Source of the DNA: Megascapheus bottae
Taxonomy: Eukaryota; Chordata; Mammalia; Rodentia; Geomyidae
Assembly (NCBI GenBank): GCA_024803745.1
Contig: JANJXV010000037.1
Location: 2,603,001 to 2,667,000, forward strand
Length of the DNA stretch: 64,000 nt
Direction of reading: 5' to 3'
Position 1 is the first letter of the stretch. Each line of letters starts with the position of its first letter. Positions 12,728 through 54,818 of this stretch are shown here, piece after piece. Under the pieces are notes generated by a model that saw only the letters and a list, made by a program, of their open reading frames with translations, ran no database searches and was not told the DNA's origin. The position numbers and the translations under genes were made by a program.

Positions 12728-12734
12728 ACCATAG
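12728..12734 (+). repeat. provirus target-site duplication, left copy
   Basis: The heptamer accatag abuts the TG-starting LTR edge at 12735 and is repeated at 18184-18190. Class II retroviruses usually duplicate 6 bp, so one of the seven bases may match by chance. Confidence 0.85.
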
Positions 12735-12919
12735 TGTTGCTCCTCTCGGGGCAGCAACACAGGAACGGGGAGGGACACACAGGGCCAGCCTGTAGTCCCC
12801 CGGGGGCCGAGCGAGATGGTAAGTGTCGAAGACCCAGCCCTCCCCCAATCACCGGGGAAGAAAAAACCACGCTGAGTCAGAAGTAGTGTTAACCATGAAA
12901 GCGCATCAGATCTCTCTGC

Positions 12920-12970
12920 TCATCTTTGCTTCTCTCTCTGATGCTCTCTGATGCTCTCTCTGATGCTCTC
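12920..12970 (+). repeat. CTCTGATG tandem units inside the LTR
   Basis: Imperfect tandem units of 'ctctgatg' with CT spacers. The second LTR copy holds the same array at about 17818-17868. The array lies in the R/U5 part of the element-strand transcript. Confidence 0.8.
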
Positions 12971-12974
12971 CTCA

Positions 12975-12980
12975 TTTATT
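12975..12980 (-). terminator. LTR polyadenylation signal AATAAA
   Basis: The plus strand reads tttatt, i.e. AATAAA in element orientation, about 15 bp downstream of the TATA box. The same hexamer in the 5' LTR is at 17873-17878. Confidence 0.75.
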
Positions 12981-12995
12981 GCGTCAGACAATTAG

Positions 12996-13002
12996 TTATA
13001 TA
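12996..13002 (-). promoter_or_regulatory. LTR TATA box
   Basis: TATATAA in element orientation inside 'cagtatataactaatt'. The 5' LTR copy at 17894-17900 would drive the provirus. An inverted CCAAT motif lies upstream at 13040-13044 (17938-17942 in the 5' LTR). Confidence 0.75.
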
Positions 13003-13286
13003 CTGTTAGGGTAGGAGAAGGTGGGCACTGGGAATCTAGCCAATAGGAAGAGGGCCCCTGTGCTACCACTAAGGGTCTGGGTGGGCTTTCAGGTACTGGG
13101 CAGGACAGGTGCAGGAAAGCGCGCGAGACTTGAGCTGCTGCGAGACCCGCAAAACTGCGGGGGGTTCAATCGAGTCACGTACACAGCCTTAAGAGAGGTA
13201 TGCAAAAGACCAAATGCCTGGACAAAGCCCTTTAATTGCAGCTGAGCCAGAATCAGGCCTCAGAGATGGAGGCTAGACCCCAACAA

Positions 13287-13299
13287 TTCCCCCTTTTTT
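13287..13299 (-). other. polypurine tract (PPT)
   Basis: In element orientation AAAAAAGGGGGAA ends one base from the TG start of the 3' LTR. This is the expected site for plus-strand DNA priming during reverse transcription. Confidence 0.85.
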
Positions 13300-13480
13300 G
13301 TTTATTAGAACAGGGGGGGACAAGCACGCAAAACCCCTGTCTTAGGTCGTCCCCTTCAGGGGATCTTACCCGTCATTGAGTGCTCTGCGGCCTTCTGTCC
13401 CACAGTACAGATCACCCCCGGGCCTGTCTTAGGTTGTCCCCGCTCCAGAGATCTTACCCGTCATTGGCTCTCGGGGAGAC
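13300..13480 (-). other. provirus 3' noncoding segment
   Basis: Between the env remnant and the PPT lies a short noncoding stretch with two copies of a 'cttaggt(c/t)gtcccc..atcttacccgtcattg' unit (about 13341-13379 and 13429-13465), an internal imperfect direct repeat of the element. Confidence 0.65.
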
Positions 13481-13800
13481 ATCTAAGGGGAGTCAAGGGA
13501 TCCTTCCTCGTCATTGGGCTCTCCTCGGTCATAGGAGTTATTGGCATTGGTAGCAAGCCTCTGGTAATGCACCTGTACGTTCATCAATTGAGTGGATTCG
13601 TTCATCAACTGAATGGATTCTATCCTGCTTTGAATGAATTGTAACCTTATTGATAACACAGGGCCCAAAAGTTAAGAGTAAGAAGAAGAGGAGTATAGGG
13701 CCAAGGAAGGACATAGGGTAGCCATCTGTGCAGTCCGGTCCAGAGGATGTTGATGATGGGTATCTTGACTCCAAGAAGAAACAGGATCAGCACTGTAAGG
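13480..13800 (-). pseudogene. env transmembrane-tail remnant, frame-broken
   Basis: Just downstream of the pol stop, minus-strand frames at 13538-13774 and 13483-13668 together resemble the C-terminal end of a retroviral TM envelope protein. There is a hydrophobic membrane span at about 13649-13717 ending in a GPC motif, then a short polar tail. The membrane span, the segment before it and the tail lie in different frames, so at least two frame breaks are present. A 21-bp tandem duplication lies in the tail (13579-13620). The whole surface subunit, the fusion peptide and most of TM are absent. The style of the span suggests a type-D/gamma-like envelope, but this rests on about 20 residues. 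No envelope protein can be made from it. Confidence 0.55.
13579..13620 (+). repeat. 21-bp tandem duplication in env remnant
   Basis: Two adjacent 21-bp units, each starting gttcatcaa and ending ggattc, differ at two positions. They lie in the cytoplasmic-tail part of the env remnant. Confidence 0.85.
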
Positions 13801-13804
13801 TCCA

Positions 13805-16800
13805 TTATTTATTCTGAAAAAGAAGGGAGAGAGAGATATCCTCAGGAGGCAGAGAGCCTTCTGGGTCTTCATCAATATTATTGGGGTCCCTCCATATTTG
13901 GGGACAATATTTAAGATCCCTTGTAGGGACCCAAATTGGCTTTGTTTCATCAGTGGGGAAAACACAACCAAATCCTCTTCCAGCTGTAATGAGGGGATCA
14001 GGGCCCCTCCACTCCCCATTAAGGGGGTCCTTCCACCGGACATAGACAGTTTGATAGGGAATAGAGGTTGTCCAATGTTTCTGGAAGGGTGAGAGATGTT
14101 CCCCTTTGGCAAAATTTAAAATATTGAGAGTAAACAAAGCCATCTTTAGCTGATCATGGGGGGGGAGTGTATTCCCCCTTTTTTGTTTTATTAATTGAGA
14201 TTTAAGGACATGGTTATATCTTTCTACTATTGCTTGTCCTCTGGGATTATGAGGGATGCCAGTAGTACGGGTAATTTGCCATTGTTTAAAGAAGTCATCA
14301 AGAGACTTGCTTACAAAACATGGACCGTTATCGGTTTTTATTTGGTCTGGCAATCCGAGAGTAGCAAAACATTGAAGAAAATGACTGATAGCATGTTTAG
14401 CTCTCTCCCCGGAATGGGCTGTAGCCCAACAGGCATGGGAAAAGGTGTCTATTGTTAAAAAAATGTATTTAAGTTTTCCAAAAAAGGGAAAATGTGTAAC
14501 ATCCGTTTGCCACAGATTGTTAGGCCTAAGGCCTCGAGGGTTAACACCGCCCATTTGGAGCGGTGGAACCTGTAAGAAAGGGTGACATGACTTGCAGGTT
14601 CTAATAATCTTTTTTAGGTCTCTAATAGCAACTTGGGGAAATCGGTGGTGCAGTCCCCTCCAGTTGGCATGCGTGAGCCGATGGAAAGAGATAGCCTCCT
14701 GTAAAGTGTAACATTCAGGATTAGAGGCTAACTGGTCAGCGAGGGCATTGCCTTTGGTCACAATACTTGGAAGGCTTTGATGTCCCCTCAGATGTTGAAT
14801 AAACATAGGAGCAATCCTTTGTTTGAGCAAATTTCTAGCTTGAATCATCAAAGGAGTGATGGGGTTGCTATCAAGTTTAATATGAGCTTCTATGAGGTTA
14901 GGTAACAAATTGACCACATACAGGCTATCTGAGAATAGGTTAAGAGGACCAGTAACCTCAGATAAAGCTAAGACCACCGCATAAAGTTCCTTAAACTGCG
15001 CTGAGCCCTGTATTTCATGAGACAGGGTAACTGCAGGAGAAGAATTGCCTTTACCTGGGGGGAAAATAACAACAGAAGCCCCCTTCTTGCCTCCATCCGT
15101 GAATACGGTGGGGAAGGAGGGATCAGCTTCACTTAGAAAAAGTTTTGGAGGTCGCCACTCCAGCTGACTAAAGGAGTGCATCCATTTATGGGGACCATAA
15201 TGACAATCCACTTTACCTGGAAAGCCTTCCATGGCTATTGCTAGTCTAGCATTATTTCTTTGTAGCCAAGAGAAATCATTAATCCTAAAAGGGACAATAA
15301 GAGAGTGAGGTTCACTCCCAAAAAGACGAGTGGATAAGTCTCGTCCTTTGACAATGCAATCTGCCATCTGGTCAGTCATGGAGTAAACTCCAGGTGTTCC
15401 TCCGACTGACAGGTGAATCCAGTGAAGAGGTTCCCCTTCCTGGCCTAAAAGGGCAGTGAAGAGGGTTTTTCCTGATAGGATATAGAGTGTTAGGGGCATA
15501 GCAGGATCATACCTCTTTAAGGCTGCTTCATTGATAGCTAATTGAATTTTATTTAGAGCCTCTTTATGATCAGTTGACAATGTTACTATGGAGGTCAGAT
15601 CAAGACCCTTTAAGAGATCAAAAAGAGGTGTGAGGGTTGCAGTGGTTATAGAGATCCATGGTCTCATCCAATTAATTTCACCAAGAAGTTTTTGAAGTTG
15701 GGGCAGGGTATAAGTATCTTGGATAGATAATTGGGGTTTTAAAGGAGACACAACATCCAGTGTTAGGACAGATCCCAGGATTTTAAAGGGGGGTATCTTT
15801 TGGATTTTTTCTGGGGCAATTTGGAAGCCATTATCTTTTAACAGTTGGAGACATTTATTAAAAAGACAATCTAAATGCTGAGTGTCTGGGCTTCCTATAA
15901 TGATATCATCCATACATATATAGAAAAGTGAGCCTGTCTCCTCGTTAGGAGGGGATAAGACTCTAGACATATAGTCCTGACATATAGGAGGACTATTGGC
16001 CATACCTTGAGGTAGAACTGTCCATTCAAAACGCAAATCAGGGCCCTTATAATTTAATGAAGGAAGGGAGAAGGCAAACTTCTCAGTATCTTCCGGGTGG
16101 AGAGGAATAGAAAAAAAACAGTCTTTGATGTCTATGACTATGAGATATTGGTCATTAGGAATGGCAGGTATCCAGGGCATCCCCCTTTGGGGGGTCCCAA
16201 AAAGTTCCATCTTCTCATTTATTTTTCTCAAATCTTGGAGTAGTCTCCACTTGCCATTAGGCTTTTTAATCACAAATACTGGGGAGTTCCAAGGGCTCAA
16301 AGACTTCCTTTTTATGCTTTTCTCAACTCTATCAACAAAAGTAGACAGGTCCTCTCTTGGTCTTTGGTTAATTTCTGCTATAGGAGACTCAGAGGGACCC
16401 TCCTTCAGTTTTCTCCAGGCCGCTAGGCCCAAAGCTCTAATCTGATCCTGATAGGGAGGGGGGATGGTGGCCTGCTGGATCCCCGTTGAGTACTGATCGG
16501 AGGTCCCTGCAAGCATCCCCAAAGTAATGGGGATTACAGGTTGCACGTGTTGGTTCCTCTCCACCTGTTGGCGGCATTCTTCTTTATACAGGGCACACCA
16601 CTTAATGAAAAGCGGGCCTGGAAGAACTGCTTTGGCCAGAGCCATCCAAACGGCTGCAGTACATGGTTGATGAGCAAGGCCTTGGAGGATGGTTTCCGTC
16701 CAAGGAGCATTAGGGCCAACTTCTAAGACAGCTTTTTTGAGTTCCTTAAGGTCGCCAGGCTCCCAGGGATACCCGGTTGCAGGGCGGTTACCACCCGGGT

Positions 16801-17521
16801 CAATATTAACCAGGAATAGCTGGCCGGACTCCGGGCCAGGTTCAAATGGTGCCTCACTAGTGACACTGTCTGTTGGGGTCACGCTCTCCGGCCTTTCTGA
16901 CACACTTCCGTTCAAAGGCTGCAATATCTTGTGGGCCTCAGAAGCACCATGCCTGTCTGGTAAATGGAGCCCTGGCAGGCCCAGACCCTCCTGTGAGACT
17001 ACTGAGGGTGGATGGAGCCCTGGCGCTGTGGGGGTTGAGAAACTACCTGGGCAGCACAGGCCCGGACGCTCCTGTGAGACCACTGAGGCCTCATGGCCTG
17101 GGTTTGATGGGGGAGGGGTAAAGGGTGGCTCCTTCTCATCTCCCTGAGGGGAACTTGGCCTTTCAGTAGATGAGAGATTAGCATCTCCGCAGGGAGTAAG
17201 GGAGGCATCTGGCCTCTCTTTGTTAACTGTGTCCCCAGGGGACCCAGCCCTCTCCTTGGAAAGTTGAGGAGAAAAACTAGACTTTAAGACTGAATAAACT
17301 CCTCCTGAAGGAGGATTTATCTGGGCTTTTCCGATTAGATGCTCAATTTTGTCCCAAGTATTCCAGTCTACCAAGTTGCTAGTTGGCAGCCACAGGGCGA
17401 TTTTAACTAAAGTATCCCAAACTTTACATGTCTGTGCAACTAAAATCTCTAACCCTCGACTTTTAAGGAAGAGCTTAAGAGAGTCGAGGGAAGGGTCATT
17501 CTTAGAAAGGTTCTTTCCCAT
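13805..17521 (-). CDS. gag-pol fusion polyprotein of the provirus
   Basis: 1238 codons without a stop. I start at the ATG at 17521 and not the upstream in-frame GTG. It gives MGKNLS, a myristoylation-type N-terminus, and lies just after the leader splice donor. Residue order: matrix about 1-75; Pro/Ser/Gly-rich linker about 80-245; capsid N-terminal domain about 246-385; a major-homology-like stretch at 384-399 (INQRPREDLSTFVDRV). The frame then passes directly into reverse transcriptase near residue 404. RT keeps VIDIKD (Asp464) and LPQGMANSP, but the active-site box is CMDD (Cys536, Asp538, Asp539), where Tyr is usual. RNase H keeps Asp809, Glu845, Asp865 and Asp929. Integrase keeps His947, His951, Cys976 and Cys979 and the DD35E triad Asp1007, Asp1064, Glu1100. 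Capsid C-terminal domain, nucleocapsid Cys-His boxes, dUTPase/protease and the first part of RT are missing. In family terms this is an assembly/integration polyprotein without its own protease. The fusion resembles mouse IAP type I-delta-1. Confidence 0.9.
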   Translation of the reverse strand: MGKNLSKNDPSLDSLKLFLKSRGLEILVAQTCKVWDTLVKIALWLPTSNLVDWNTWDKIEHLIGKAQINPPSGGVYSVLKSSFSPQLSKERAGSPGDTVNKERPDASLTPCGDANLSSTERPSSPQGDEKEPPFTPPPSNPGHEASVVSQERPGLCCPGSFSTPTAPGLHPPSVVSQEGLGLPGLHLPDRHGASEAHKILQPLNGSVSERPESVTPTDSVTSEAPFEPGPESGQLFLVNIDPGGNRPATGYPWEPGDLKELKKAVLEVGPNAPWTETILQGLAHQPCTAAVWMALAKAVLPGPLFIKWCALYKEECRQQVERNQHVQPVIPITLGMLAGTSDQYSTGIQQATIPPPYQDQIRALGLAAWRKLKEGPSESPIAEINQRPREDLSTFVDRVEKSIKRKSLSPWNSPVFVIKKPNGKWRLLQDLRKINEKMELFGTPQRGMPWIPAIPNDQYLIVIDIKDCFFSIPLHPEDTEKFAFSLPSLNYKGPDLRFEWTVLPQGMANSPPICQDYMSRVLSPPNEETGSLFYICMDDIIIGSPDTQHLDCLFNKCLQLLKDNGFQIAPEKIQKIPPFKILGSVLTLDVVSPLKPQLSIQDTYTLPQLQKLLGEINWMRPWISITTATLTPLFDLLKGLDLTSIVTLSTDHKEALNKIQLAINEAALKRYDPAMPLTLYILSGKTLFTALLGQEGEPLHWIHLSVGGTPGVYSMTDQMADCIVKGRDLSTRLFGSEPHSLIVPFRINDFSWLQRNNARLAIAMEGFPGKVDCHYGPHKWMHSFSQLEWRPPKLFLSEADPSFPTVFTDGGKKGASVVIFPPGKGNSSPAVTLSHEIQGSAQFKELYAVVLALSEVTGPLNLFSDSLYVVNLLPNLIEAHIKLDSNPITPLMIQARNLLKQRIAPMFIQHLRGHQSLPSIVTKGNALADQLASNPECYTLQEAISFHRLTHANWRGLHHRFPQVAIRDLKKIIRTCKSCHPFLQVPPLQMGGVNPRGLRPNNLWQTDVTHFPFFGKLKYIFLTIDTFSHACWATAHSGERAKHAISHFLQCFATLGLPDQIKTDNGPCFVSKSLDDFFKQWQITRTTGIPHNPRGQAIVERYNHVLKSQLIKQKRGNTLPPHDQLKMALFTLNILNFAKGEHLSPFQKHWTTSIPYQTVYVRWKDPLNGEWRGPDPLITAGRGFGCVFPTDETKPIWVPTRDLKYCPQIWRDPNNIDEDPEGSLPPEDISLSLLFQNK
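15905..15916 (-). other. RT catalytic box, Tyr replaced by Cys
   Basis: The four codons read Cys-Met-Asp-Asp. Both catalytic aspartates are present. The Cys codon TGT is at 15914-15916. Confidence 0.9.
16297..16327 (-). other. gag-pol deletion junction
   Basis: Within this interval the protein changes from capsid major-homology sequence (TFVDRVEKSI) to RT finger sequence (SPWNSPVFVIKK) with the frame maintained. All coding between these points in related retroviruses (late gag, pro, start of pol) is absent. The exact breakpoint cannot be fixed without an intact relative. Confidence 0.8.
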
Positions 17522-17534
17522 ATTTGATGGGAGT

Positions 17535-17542
17535 ACACTTAC
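17535..17542 (-). promoter_or_regulatory. leader splice donor
   Basis: In element orientation CGG|GTAAGTGT, a near-consensus 5' splice site 14 bases upstream of the gag ATG. In an intact relative it would generate spliced env mRNA. Here little env remains. Confidence 0.65.
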
Positions 17543-17612
17543 CCGCAGTCCGATTAGCTCGTCGGCGGTGAGTTTCTCGAGCACGTGGAGCCCTCACACG
17601 GGCGGCAAAGTT

Positions 17613-17630
17613 TCCTCACACGGGGCACCA
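17613..17630 (-). other. primer binding site, tRNA-Met type
   Basis: The plus strand reads tcctcacacggggcacca, two bases inside the 5' LTR edge. This is the form of the 3' end of an elongator tRNA-Met including CCA, so minus-strand DNA synthesis is inferred to be primed by tRNA-Met. Identification is from remembered tRNA sequence. Confidence 0.75.
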
Positions 17631-17632
17631 GC

Positions 17633-18183
17633 TGTTGCTCCTCTAGGGGCAGCAACACAGGAACGGGGAGGGACACACAGGGCCAGCCTGTAGTCCCCCG
17701 GGGGCCGAGCGAGATGGTAAGTGTCGAAGACCCAGCCCTCCCCCAATCACCGGGGAAGAAAAAACCACGCTGAGTCAGAAGTAGTGTTAACCATGAAAGC
17801 GCATCAGATCTCTCTGCTCATCTTTGCTTCTCTCTCTGATGCTCTCTGATGCTCTCTCTGATGCTCTCCTCATTTATTGCGTCAGACAATTAGTTATATA
17901 CTGTTAGGGTAGGAGAAGGTGGGCACTGGGAATCTAGCCAATAGGAAGAGGGCCCCTGTGCTACCACTAAGGGTCTGGGTGGGCTTTCAGGTACTGGGCA
18001 GGACAGGTGCAGGAAAGCGCGCGAGACTTGAGCTGCTGCGAGACCCGCAAAACTGCGGGGGGTTCAATCGAGTCACGTACACAGCCTTAAGAGAGGTATG
18101 CAAAAGACCAAATGCCTGGACAAAGCCCTTTAATTGCAGCTGAGCCAGAATCAGGCCTCAGAGATGGAGGCTAGACCCCAACA
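17633..18183 (-). repeat. 5' LTR of the provirus
   Basis: 551 bp and aligned by eye with the 3' LTR with one substitution (17645 a against 12747 c). It carries the active-position TATA (17894-17900), polyA signal (17873-17878) and inverted CCAAT (17938-17942). Confidence 0.95.
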
Positions 18184-18190
18184 ACCATAG
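18184..18190 (+). repeat. provirus target-site duplication, right copy
   Basis: The heptamer accatag directly follows the LTR end aaca and matches 12728-12734. Confidence 0.85.
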
Positions 18191-24539: not shown

Positions 24540-26010
24540 GTTTATTTTTTGAAAGATTTCAAAGATTTTATTAACACTGATTTTTTATTAAAGAATTTAT
24601 TAACATCGATTTTACATCATATTTCAAATGACGTGTTTAACAAACTAGTATTCAAGAAGGGAATCTATATACAATCACTGGCACTTAGATTTTAGAACAT
24701 AATCAAAATTAGGCTGAGGGATTGTATGTCCTAGATACATAATAATCTATGTAATAAAACCTTATGTCTACAGAGTCATACGTTTTTATGTCTATGTAGT
24801 TGTGTTTATATTTCCAGGACCATGTCCATAGCATTGGGTATACAACTTTTGAGTCCTCGCTCTTGTACTGTTTGGATCTAATAACCACATATTAAGGATA
24901 CTATGAGCCTTTTGTTCCTTTTATATATATATATTTTTTTCTGTATCCATTCATCTGCAGTAGGGCATCTAGATTGTTTCCATTGTCTGGCTAGTGTGAA
25001 TAATGCAGAGATAAAACATAGCTGAGTAGGTGTCCTTATCATATCTTGGGTTATGAGGTTCAGGGTAGATGCCCAGAAGTTGTATGACAGGATTGTAGGG
25101 AAGGTCAATTTTCAGTTCTTTAAGAAACCTCCACACTAAGGCCGGGAGTTTGGCCTAGTGGTAGAGTGCTTGCCTAGCATGCACGAAGACCCAGGTTCGA
25201 TTCCTCGGTACCACATACATAGAAAAAAGCCAGAAGTGGTGCTGTGGCTCAAGTGGTAGAGCCCTAGCCTTGAGAAAATCCAGGGACAGTGCTCAGGCCC
25301 TGAGCCCAAGCCAGGACTGGCAAAAAAAAGAAAAAAAAGAAAAAAAGAAAAGAAACCTCCACACTGCTTTCCAGAGTGACAGAACTAGTTTACATTCCCA
25401 CCAACAGTGTAGGAGGGTTCCTCTTTCTCCACAACCCTGCCAGCATCTGTCATTGAGTTCAGAATCTTGGCCATTCTTGTTGGGGTAAGGTGGTATCTTA
25501 GGGTTGTTTTTATTTGCATTTCCTTTATGACCATGGATGATGAGCATTTTCTCATGTTTCTTTTTTTGCCATTTTAACCTCTTCTTTTGATAATTCTCTC
25601 TTTAGTTCCCTTGCCCATTTAGTGAATGGTTTGTTGAGTTTGGGGTGGGGGGGCGATTAGTTTCTTGAGTTCCCTATAGATACTGGATATTAAGCATTTG
25701 TCTGATGTATTATTGGTAAATATCTTTTCCCAGTTGGTTGGCTGTCTCTCTACTTTTGCGACTATGTTTTTATCTGCACAGAAACTTTTTATTTTTAGGT
25801 AATCCCATTTATTGAGTCTCTCTCCAATCTGTTGTGACCATGGGATTCTGTTCAGGAATCTTTTGCCTGTGCCTATGAGTTTCAGTGTCTCTCCTACTCT
25901 ATCATGTAGCAGTTTCATGGTTTCCAGTCTGATATTGAGGTCTTTGATCCACTTTGAGTTAGTGCTTGTGCATGGTGAAAGGCTAGGGTTAATTTTTAGT
26001 TTTCTGCACA
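24540..26010 (-). mobile_element. L1 fragment (3'UTR and ORF2 C-terminus), SINE-interrupted
   Basis: The 3'UTR lies at about 24540-24900. ORF2 C-terminal coding follows, interrupted at 25138-25349 by an IDL-Geo SINE and resuming to about 26010. Minus frames 24878-25108, 25293-25547 and 25619-26017 translate to ORF2-like sequence (e.g. LFTLARQWKQSRCPTADEW) but in separate frames, so it is inactive. It parallels the neighbouring copy at 26011-27690 base for base over most of its length. Confidence 0.88.
25122..25365 (+). repeat. IDL-Geo SINE inside L1, 16-bp TSD
   Basis: A full IDL-Geo with A/G-rich tail (25138-25349), bounded by the perfect repeat aagaaacctccacact at 25122-25137 and 25350-25365. 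It inserted opposite to the L1 direction and after the L1. Confidence 0.95.
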
Positions 26011-45850: not shown

Positions 45851-45965
45851 CATACAAAACAAAGGCTACAGACATCGAATACAGTGACATCAGGAAATAA
45901 ACCAATGAAAAATGGAAAGAAAAAAAAACCCAAGAGCTGTTTGCTCTTTAGAAAAAATGTTGGAT

Positions 45966-46127
45966 GGGCTGGGAATTTGACCTAGTGGTAGAGTGCTTGC
46001 CTAGCATGCACGAAGACCCAGGTTCGATTCCTCAGTACCACACATGTAGAAAAAAGCTGGAAGTGGTGCTGTGGCTCAAGTGGTAGAGTTCTAGCCTTGA
46101 GAAAGCCTAAGGACAGTGCCCAAAACC
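45966..46127 (+). repeat. IDL-Geo SINE, 3'-truncated
   Basis: A well-conserved ID-like half ('ctagcatgcacgaagacccaggttcgattcctc') and a Geo half broken at 'gacagtgcccaaaacc'. Confidence 0.88.
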
Positions 46128-46429
46128 GTTATATAGATTGAATAGATAACAATGTATGTGATACCACCTTGCTAACTTGCTATGATTAGTAATGAGAATG
46201 GAAAATAGCAGTGAAATACAAAATGGAGCAGATAAGATTCCTGTGTGCCCAATCTATTCTTTTCTAAGCAATGATTTTCTTATTACTGCAAACTCAAAAT
46301 CTCAGATGGTTGATGTTTTTTATATGTATGCAAACCAGAGGTAATCTCCGGGATTCCTAGGTAAGAAATTCTGATGGGGAAGGAGCCAGGTCTATATGGA
46401 GAAAGCTACTTTTCAATGAGCCTTAGAAT
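46128..46429. other. unassigned noncoding sequence
   Basis: No gene seen. Confidence 0.4.
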
Positions 46430-53935: not shown

Positions 53936-54120
53936 GCTAATCCTGGGGCTTGAACTCAGGGCTTGGGCACTGTCCTTGGGCTTTCGCAAGGATAGCACTC
54001 TATCACTTGAGCCACAGCAGGACTTCTGGCTTTTTTGTGTATATGGTGCTGAGGAATCGAACCCAGGGCTTCATGCACTCTAGGCAAGCTCTCTACCACT
54101 AGGCCACGCTCCTGGCCCCA
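53936..54120 (-). repeat. IDL-Geo SINE
   Basis: An antisense full copy from 'taatcctggggcttgaactcagggc' to 'taggccacgctcctggccc'. Confidence 0.9.
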
Positions 54121-54818
54121 ATTTATTTTTAAACACAATAAATATGTAAGCTGAAGTTACAGCCATCAAAGTGGCTGAAACCTAAAACCTCGTGAATCAT
54201 CATAAAATCCAAAATGCAAACTCATAACATTATCTGAGGCTGTCCAAGAACATGTAGGTGTGAGATTCTCTATTCAAGCACGGGTGTGCTTCTAGCTGGT
54301 TGCTAAGGGAGTTGACCTATTCTAGGCTCTGCTGCCAAAGTGTCTATATCCTGTGCCTTATCGCTTACTGGACTTTCCCCACCCCCACCCGCTGGTCTCC
54401 TTTCTTGGCTACTGTGGGTTGGGTCAGGAAGGGAGGGTGTACTTGAGCCAAGGGTATGCATCAGGCTGGCTCATTAGTGGCCAGAATCTTCTGGATTTCC
54501 ACCCTTTCCTTTCTCTCCCTGAATCTGGAGGGACATTTCTGATGGACAACAAAGATGACCGCAGGAAAACGATACCCAGTGGGGCTGGAGAACTGTTGCC
54601 CATGAGAAAAGCAATTCCAAGGCCATGAACACCATCAGCCGCTACAGCCATTGTGTAGTTGCGCATAGCAACACTCCAGCTTGCATTGGTGTGTGCAACA
54701 ATAACAACAAAAAAAAGCAGAACTAACTGCTTTAAGAGAGGAAGAGCCATGATTTCACTGCAATCAAGCATTTCTTCCTTTTGTTTTATCTACTCAACCC
54801 GCCCCCCTCCTTCCTTTG
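54121..54818. other. unassigned noncoding sequence
   Basis: A 115-codon minus frame (54424-54771) is discussed and rejected as a gene. Confidence 0.4.

Follow-up and report, generated by a model that had tools for sequence, protein, structure and literature searches.

Is an endogenous retrovirus (ERV) whose gag and pol have been joined into one reading frame by an internal deletion the accident of a single copy, or can it spread in that form? The question is raised by a 64,000-nt stretch of the genome of the rodent Megascapheus bottae (contig JANJXV010000037.1, positions 2,603,001 to 2,667,000; hereafter the window, on which all coordinates are counted), which holds a 5450-bp class II ERV of this kind on its minus strand. 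The element is best explained, in our judgment with good though far from complete confidence, as a young copy of a non-autonomous spreader subfamily of single origin that is mobilized in trans, that encodes a fusion protein which is probably translated and useful, and that has converged on the organization of the mouse IAP 1-delta-1 elements.

The fused junction in the host genome

The 2.84-Gb host genome was searched with a 42-nt junction pattern, allowing up to 3 mismatches. This gave 274 places with the junction, 170 on one strand and 104 on the other; the 100 places listed are all exact matches, and a control pattern was found at none. These places may not all be separate insertions, as some loci are identical or nearly so, possibly because of duplicated DNA or doubled contigs. 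A 221-bp query returned 392 first-look candidates, the best 40 of which were scored and each shown as 100%. Over 38 loci, the best matching piece per locus was 95.4-98.0% identical to the window (a few pieces being broken or shorter), and 33 of these loci covered more than 95% of the 905-codon stretch used below for counting variants.

Twenty fused copies were fetched whole. Both long terminal repeats (LTRs) were present in 19 of them, at differing target sites (for L044, one of these, no matching target duplication is seen), and the exact 18-nt primer-binding site (PBS) was likewise found in 19 of the 20. The LTRs of a fused copy diverge by a median of 0.19% (range 0-1.51%; n = 19 of 20), which we take to correspond to a few hundred thousand years at commonly used mammalian rates that are not specific to this host. 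The window copy is itself a recent insertion, since its LTRs differ at one site and CCATAG stands on both flanks. A fusion frame of at least 1237 aa starting at MGKN is open in 10 of the 20 whole copies, with three kinds of C-terminal end, and one further copy has a frame of 1266 aa without the MGKN start string.

As the identical join recurs in many copies, the fused subfamily has a single origin, and the in-frame gag-pol fusion common to these copies is as expected of non-autonomous gag-pol fusion ERVs. An earlier sequence-only reading of the window had pointed out that a join confined to this copy would be a private deletion, and one varying between assemblies an artefact. The window by itself shows a single copy. 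With 274 junction places on many contigs and 19 copies at differing target sites, the probability of either is practically nil.

Two loci deserve mention for their structure. One pair of same-strand fused junctions, at G000:C308:855887 and 860744, is separated by about 4.86 kb, near the length of the element minus one LTR, a spacing as expected of a tandem pair sharing an LTR. L039 is a fused copy of 4916 bp whose LTRs are without mismatch (one gap column) and whose frame of 1072 aa runs from MGKN to the usual end, and so represents a further in-frame internal shortening.

The deletion joins capsid to reverse transcriptase in one frame

The fusion frame of the window copy comprises 1238 codons, from the ATG at 17521 to the stop ending at 13805, with no internal stop. 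The Pfam domains matched are, in order, Gag_p24, RVT_1, RVT_thumb, RNase_H (21.8 bits, under the Pfam cutoff of 25.8), Integrase_Zn, rve and IN_DBD_C; a zinc knuckle and the D[TS]GA protease motif were looked for in this frame, and neither is present. Relative to three copies of full layout from the same genome, the fused form lacks 1126 nt, which in those copies carry a zinc knuckle, the protease and the start of the reverse transcriptase (RT). The three are collinear with the window on both sides of the gap, with gag pieces 84-94% and the pol side 97.3-97.7% identical. As 1126 leaves a remainder of 1 when divided by three, loss of the segment brings pol into frame with gag, and no frameshift site is needed. 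The join has one ambiguous base (a shared T), and because the breakpoints have at most a base or two in common, both a template switch and end joining are possible origins of the deletion.

The same parts are seen to be missing when proteins are compared. Capsid relatives extend beyond the VEKS[IM].[RK]K stretch into the remaining capsid, with one or two zinc knuckles in 4 of the 5 gag relatives checked, and RT relatives have an N-terminal stretch ahead of SPWN (some rows begin later), where the window joins capsid straight to SPWN. The sequence-only reading had described capsid running without a stop into RT as a single 1238-codon frame, had put the join within 16297-16327 and had held that no frameshift site was required; the open frame is confirmed, the comparison with full-layout copies sets the join at 16303/16302, and the shift of pol into the gag frame accounts for the rest. 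It was also right that nucleocapsid, protease and early RT are missing, and only the 1.9 kb it mentioned does not carry over, as that length belongs to the mouse IAP deletion.

Full-layout relatives are few and, where dated, older

A 1001-nt probe of the removed segment gave full-length matches of at least 98% identity in 4 places, one of which is the probe's own locus, and of at least 88% in 8, one of which spans 991 nt; both counts are lower bounds from the best 40 of 118 candidates, with short fragments of at least 88% left out. A protein bait for the missing part of gag gave three clear best matches among 150 scored of 3649 candidates. Three of the four places at 98% or above were read, and the gag part of the fourth shows as two separate pieces in the protein search. 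In each of the three, gag, pro and pol occupy a frame of their own, those of pro and pol staying open throughout the stretch read. All three have the exact PBS, and their LTR stretches are 91-93% identical to those of the window. Their LTRs diverge by 0.94, 0.92 and 2.58% (the first copy having no matching target duplication seen), more than the LTRs of 18 of the 19 fused copies (n = 3 full-layout copies).

L072, at rank 8 of the protein search, is an older full-layout member, 88% identical over the removed segment and of the same layout. The intervening ranks 4 to 7 (L068-L071) were considered as close members and rejected, being more distant families at about 65-77% over longer pieces. Fused places stand to close full-layout ones at about 274 to 4, or 274 to 8 if those at 88% are included, counted with different probes. 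The comparison of copy numbers and LTR ages that the sequence-only reading had proposed as a check thus came out in its favor, with 274 fused places, few full-layout ones, and the three of these that were dated being older by their LTRs. Among these three (L059-L061), gag differs by 4-10% and pol by about 2%, a disparity that suggests either gag exchange between lineages or fast change of gag.

A further possibility is that the fused element is autonomous, its fusion protein performing all steps. The regions for RT, RNase H and integrase persist with unremarkable conservation, the copies are young and numerous, and gag is interrupted in two of the three full-layout stretches read. An autonomous element would nevertheless have to do without nucleocapsid, protease and the RT N-terminus in a genome that still holds full-layout relatives with the same PBS and similar LTRs, and we regard autonomy as very improbable.

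Signs of selection and recombination among the copies

Variants were counted in 33 fused copies over the 905-codon stretch, with 216 codons near gaps left out; the picture was the same when these were included. None of 132 shared variants was a nonsense change, against 5.1 expected (P = 0.006). On the pol side, silent and replacement changes stood at 41:37 among shared variants versus 15:53 among singletons (p = 1.7e-4), and the shared variants at sites uniform in the three full-layout copies gave 28:28 (p = 0.001). Stops within the 905 codons were found in 5 of the 33 copies, and a +1/-1 gap pair at neighbouring codons, cancelling out, in 15 of 38. If the 33 include duplicated loci, recent neutral changes would be counted as shared, which would weaken the contrast between classes, not create it.

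The pol sequences of fused and full-layout copies behave as one pool. Over the stretch compared, 39 fused and 3 full-layout copies are set apart by 2 fixed differences, both on the gag side, and by none on the pol side, and in a weakly supported pol tree the full-layout copies are interleaved with the fused ones. Of 6555 pairs of informative sites, 3528 have all four allele combinations, a sign of recombination and thereby of co-packaging of RNAs; recurrent mutation may add some of these pairs.

Several results weigh against the proposal that a useful fusion protein is under selection and that the subfamily is mobilized by full-layout relatives. Nonsense changes were also below expectation among singletons (2 of 136 versus 5.2 expected, P = 0.10). 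On the gag side, silent and replacement changes did not differ between shared variants (20:34) and singletons (28:40; p = 0.71), and the singletons there are not clearly neutral, while those on the pol side lie above the neutral expectation (ratio 1.42), which makes the neutral model a coarse one. Of the 33 copies, only 14 have neither stops nor frame-changing gaps within the 905 codons, and half of the whole fused copies (10 of 20) fall under 1237 aa or lack the MGKN start. Selected pol variants could come from full-layout copies by recombination, in which case the pol signal need not reflect the fusion; the 28:28 subset argues against such imports only as far as three full-layout copies can. 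Finally, gag is open over the stretch read in one of the three full-layout copies and carries one stop in each of the other two, and our confidence is lowered on this account.

Some of these observations suit a different explanation, namely that the fused subfamily spreads in trans by virtue of its RNA alone (a shorter genome, promoter and packaging signals), the protein being inert and its frame refreshed by recombination. The inseparable pol of the two forms, the pervasive recombination and the lack of excess constraint among shared gag-side variants would all be expected under it. What it does not readily explain is why shared nonsense variants are missing on either side of the junction, and why the pol-side bias persists where the full-layout copies are uniform. 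We consider spread by RNA alone unlikely, though by no means negligible, and continue to favor a fusion protein that is itself of use.

A dip in diversity at the junction (bin 1197-1347) was considered as the trace of a sweep and rejected. It disappeared once the 42-nt search pattern was left out, having arisen because the copies had been chosen by their exact junction; without the pattern, pol-side diversity between 0 and 100 nt from the junction was 0.88, 0.89 and 0.67%.

Independence from IAP 1-delta-1

To our knowledge, IAP 1-delta-1 is the one well-known deleted ERV whose fused gag-pol protein helps its spread. The similar organization of the window element and the presence of IAP sequences among its RT matches might suggest a branch of IAP that carries the same deletion. 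A tree of RNase H-integrase sequences (21 rows) rejects a clade with the IAP rows (approximately unbiased test, p = 5e-69); this comparison was chosen after a first tree of 31 rows had been seen, both trees have long branches, and the p value is descriptive. The 31-row tree also keeps the window element outside the IAP clade. In its RNase H-integrase sequence, the element shares a deep class II branch with only one database protein, P0136 (68% identical).

The primer and the breakpoint tell the same way. The PBS, TGGTGCCCCGTGTGAGGA, is in our understanding complementary to tRNA-Met, not of the tRNA-Phe type of IAP. A paper on HIV primer sites for tRNA-Met, Pro and Ile (PMC1084362) contains 17 nt of this PBS once, with no label to the string in the passages at hand; for IAP, priming with tRNA-Phe is stated in the relevant passage of PMC7472051. 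The junction oligonucleotide published for IAP 1-delta-1 (in the excerpt of PMC4091709) translates to AYSAEPDKRY. EPDKRY/EPDNRY sits downstream of the KDCFF block in IAP pol, whereas RT in the window resumes at SPWN, upstream of KDCFF, and the breakpoints therefore differ on the pol side, which is the side that this comparison covers. Membership in IAP is most improbable on these grounds, and the fused element, as far as its sequence tells, arose independently of IAP 1-delta-1 and is of the same kind, not a member. The sequence-only reading had assigned it to a class II family other than IAP and had proposed an independent, convergent fusion that could spread; the former agrees with the tree, the primer site and the RT breakpoint, and the latter with the non-IAP pol and the 274 junction places. 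The different rodent lineage that it had supposed would be in line with SINEs of the window that resemble those of Geomyoidea.

Both elements are class II ERVs without env in which an internal deletion has fused gag and pol in frame, and both are non-autonomous and represented by young copies. The element described here differs in its pol lineage, perhaps in the MG at the N-terminus of gag, in an RT that keeps the KDCFF block, and in the length of the deletion, 1126 nt versus 1.9 kb (passages of PMC6466679 and PMC7060167) or 1.2 kb (excerpt of PMC4091709) for IAP 1-delta-1. Full-layout copies are also much rarer here (at least 4 close ones versus 274 fused places) than in mouse, for which about 200 fused and over 700 full-length IAP sites are given in the excerpt of PMC4091709.

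Searches of phage and viral contigs returned no relative of the element. Among the best 120 of 401 matches in a protein search across the junction, no rodent protein had both gag and RT domains, and bird gene models with both domains were among the matches listed, which may be predicted splice products. Gag relatives P0002, P0003, P0009, P0010, P0011 and P0013 include proteins from musk deer, stoat, woodrat and kangaroo rat, and to judge from these sequences this gag type spans distant mammals.

Comparison with other non-autonomous families

The coding region of mouse ETn was replaced, not fused. ETn resembles the fused subfamily as the non-autonomous partner of a coding class II family, MusD, that causes most of that family's new insertions (passages of PMC6466679), and differs from it in its tRNA Lys primer (passage of PMC7472051). 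In cattle, defective D-type copies of ERVK[2-1-LTR] outnumber competent ones and dominate new insertions, supposedly spreading by trans-complementation with recombination between the two types; all D-type members lack intact gag, pro, pol and env open reading frames, and the passages at hand (PMC10924933) describe no gag-pol fusion frame. The mysTR-related ERVKs of the deer mouse are env-less class II elements of a rodent with abundant non-autonomous derivatives; these have no obvious coding capacity, and the excerpt of PMC10089650 describes no fusion. Among the literature matches listed on gag-pol fusion ERVs, no second independent in-frame case was found.

What had been an oddity becomes a comparative system with this second, independent case, which belongs to another family, has a breakpoint of its own and a selection signal that can be measured, and is accompanied by far fewer full-layout relatives. 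Several questions can then be asked: what portions of the fusion protein are retained, whether fusions of this sort regularly outgrow their helpers and drive them to extinction, and whether the idea of parasites on parasites, put forward for ERVs of cattle, holds in general.

A proposed route of spread

As the common junction shows, the subfamily descends from one element in which loss of 1126 nt brought capsid and RT together in a single frame. We propose that the fused RNA was then packaged, matured and copied by proteins from full-layout relatives, which have the same pol and primer site and related LTRs. Mobilization in trans is suggested because nucleocapsid, protease and the RT N-terminus are missing and because pol forms a shared, recombining pool. 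The sequence-only reading had likewise supposed that proteins of intact relatives could be used, and the missing parts and shared pol fit that supposition, although gag has a stop in two of the three full-layout stretches read.

Translation of the fused matrix-capsid-RT-RNase H-integrase protein is probable, as is its usefulness to those copies that spread, given the lack of shared nonsense changes and the pol-side bias toward silent changes. Most likely it would favor the RNA from which it was translated. Such help in cis is taken as its likeliest role by analogy with IAP 1-delta-1, whose fusion protein, according to passages of PMC6466679 and PMC7411935, acts in cis in favor of its own RNA but depends on complete IAPs for gag and pol. 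More tentatively, and with rather more doubt than belief, we suggest that gag-pol fusion by internal deletion may be a repeatable route for class II ERVs to become spreaders. The fusion protein of the present subfamily, which keeps the catalytic core of RT, RNase H and integrase, would then have been selected as a protein, serving either as a cis-acting targeting and packaging adaptor or as a supplementary enzyme within particles made by a very small number of full-layout copies, now nearly replaced by it.

Layout of the element and other features of the window

The features are collected in Table 1. Assignment to class II (ERVK-like) follows from the betaretrovirus-like Gag p24, RT, RNase H (below cutoff) and integrase domains, together with paired LTRs ending in TG...CA, a 6-bp duplication and a PBS after the 5' LTR. 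Among solved structures, the best match of the capsid is HERV-K and that of RT is entry 7sr6, presumably the HERV-K RT.

Table 1. Coordinates of the fused element and of other features in the window.
Feature	Position	Strand	Remarks
Class II endogenous retrovirus	12735-18184	minus	5450 bp
5' LTR	17633..18184	minus	552 bp, ends TG...CA; identity to 3' LTR 99.8% over 552 bp
3' LTR	12735..13286	minus	552 bp; differs from 5' LTR at 1/552 sites
Target-site duplication CCATAG, left copy	12729..12734		6 bp
Target-site duplication CCATAG, right copy	18185..18190		6 bp
Primer-binding site, 18 nt, TGGTGCCCCGTGTGAGGA	17613..17630	minus	two bases after 5' LTR
Gag part of fusion frame	16303..17521	minus	N-terminal MG, matrix-like start, p24 N-terminal domain, capsid to just beyond major homology region
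Deletion junction	16302..16303	minus	1126 nt of full-layout relatives absent
Pol part of fusion frame	13805..16302	minus	RT from SPWN on (no RT N-terminus), thumb, RNase H, integrase
RT motif CMDD	15905..15916	minus
Segment between stop and 3' LTR	13287..13804	minus	518 bp, polypurine run at its end
Two-part SINEs, ID-like left half and second unit GCTGTGGCTCAAGTG	25120-25300, 45950-46130, 53950-54130

The RT motif reads CMDD in the window copy alone. YMDD stands at this position in 32 of the 38 other fused copies and in all three full-layout copies, the remaining fused copies having other changes (4 of 38) or a gap or missing sequence (2 of 38), and tyrosine is found in all 151 relatives with xMDD. 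As no other examined copy has it, CMDD was rejected as a family trait. Decay of pol after the fusion was also considered and rejected: of the conserved columns, 2 of 56 in RT and 2 of 49 in RNase H-integrase are broken in the window copy, which is unremarkable among divergent relatives (four insect outliers having been dropped after a weaker first run).

The 518 bp that follow the stop are too short for an env gene. Despite there being no room for env, a splice-donor-like GGGTAAGT lies at 17541-17542 (minus strand), within the short leader that separates PBS and gag ATG. Elsewhere in the window, the two-part short interspersed elements (SINEs) with GCTGTGGCTCAAGTG are, we assume, like IDL-Geo of Geomyoidea.
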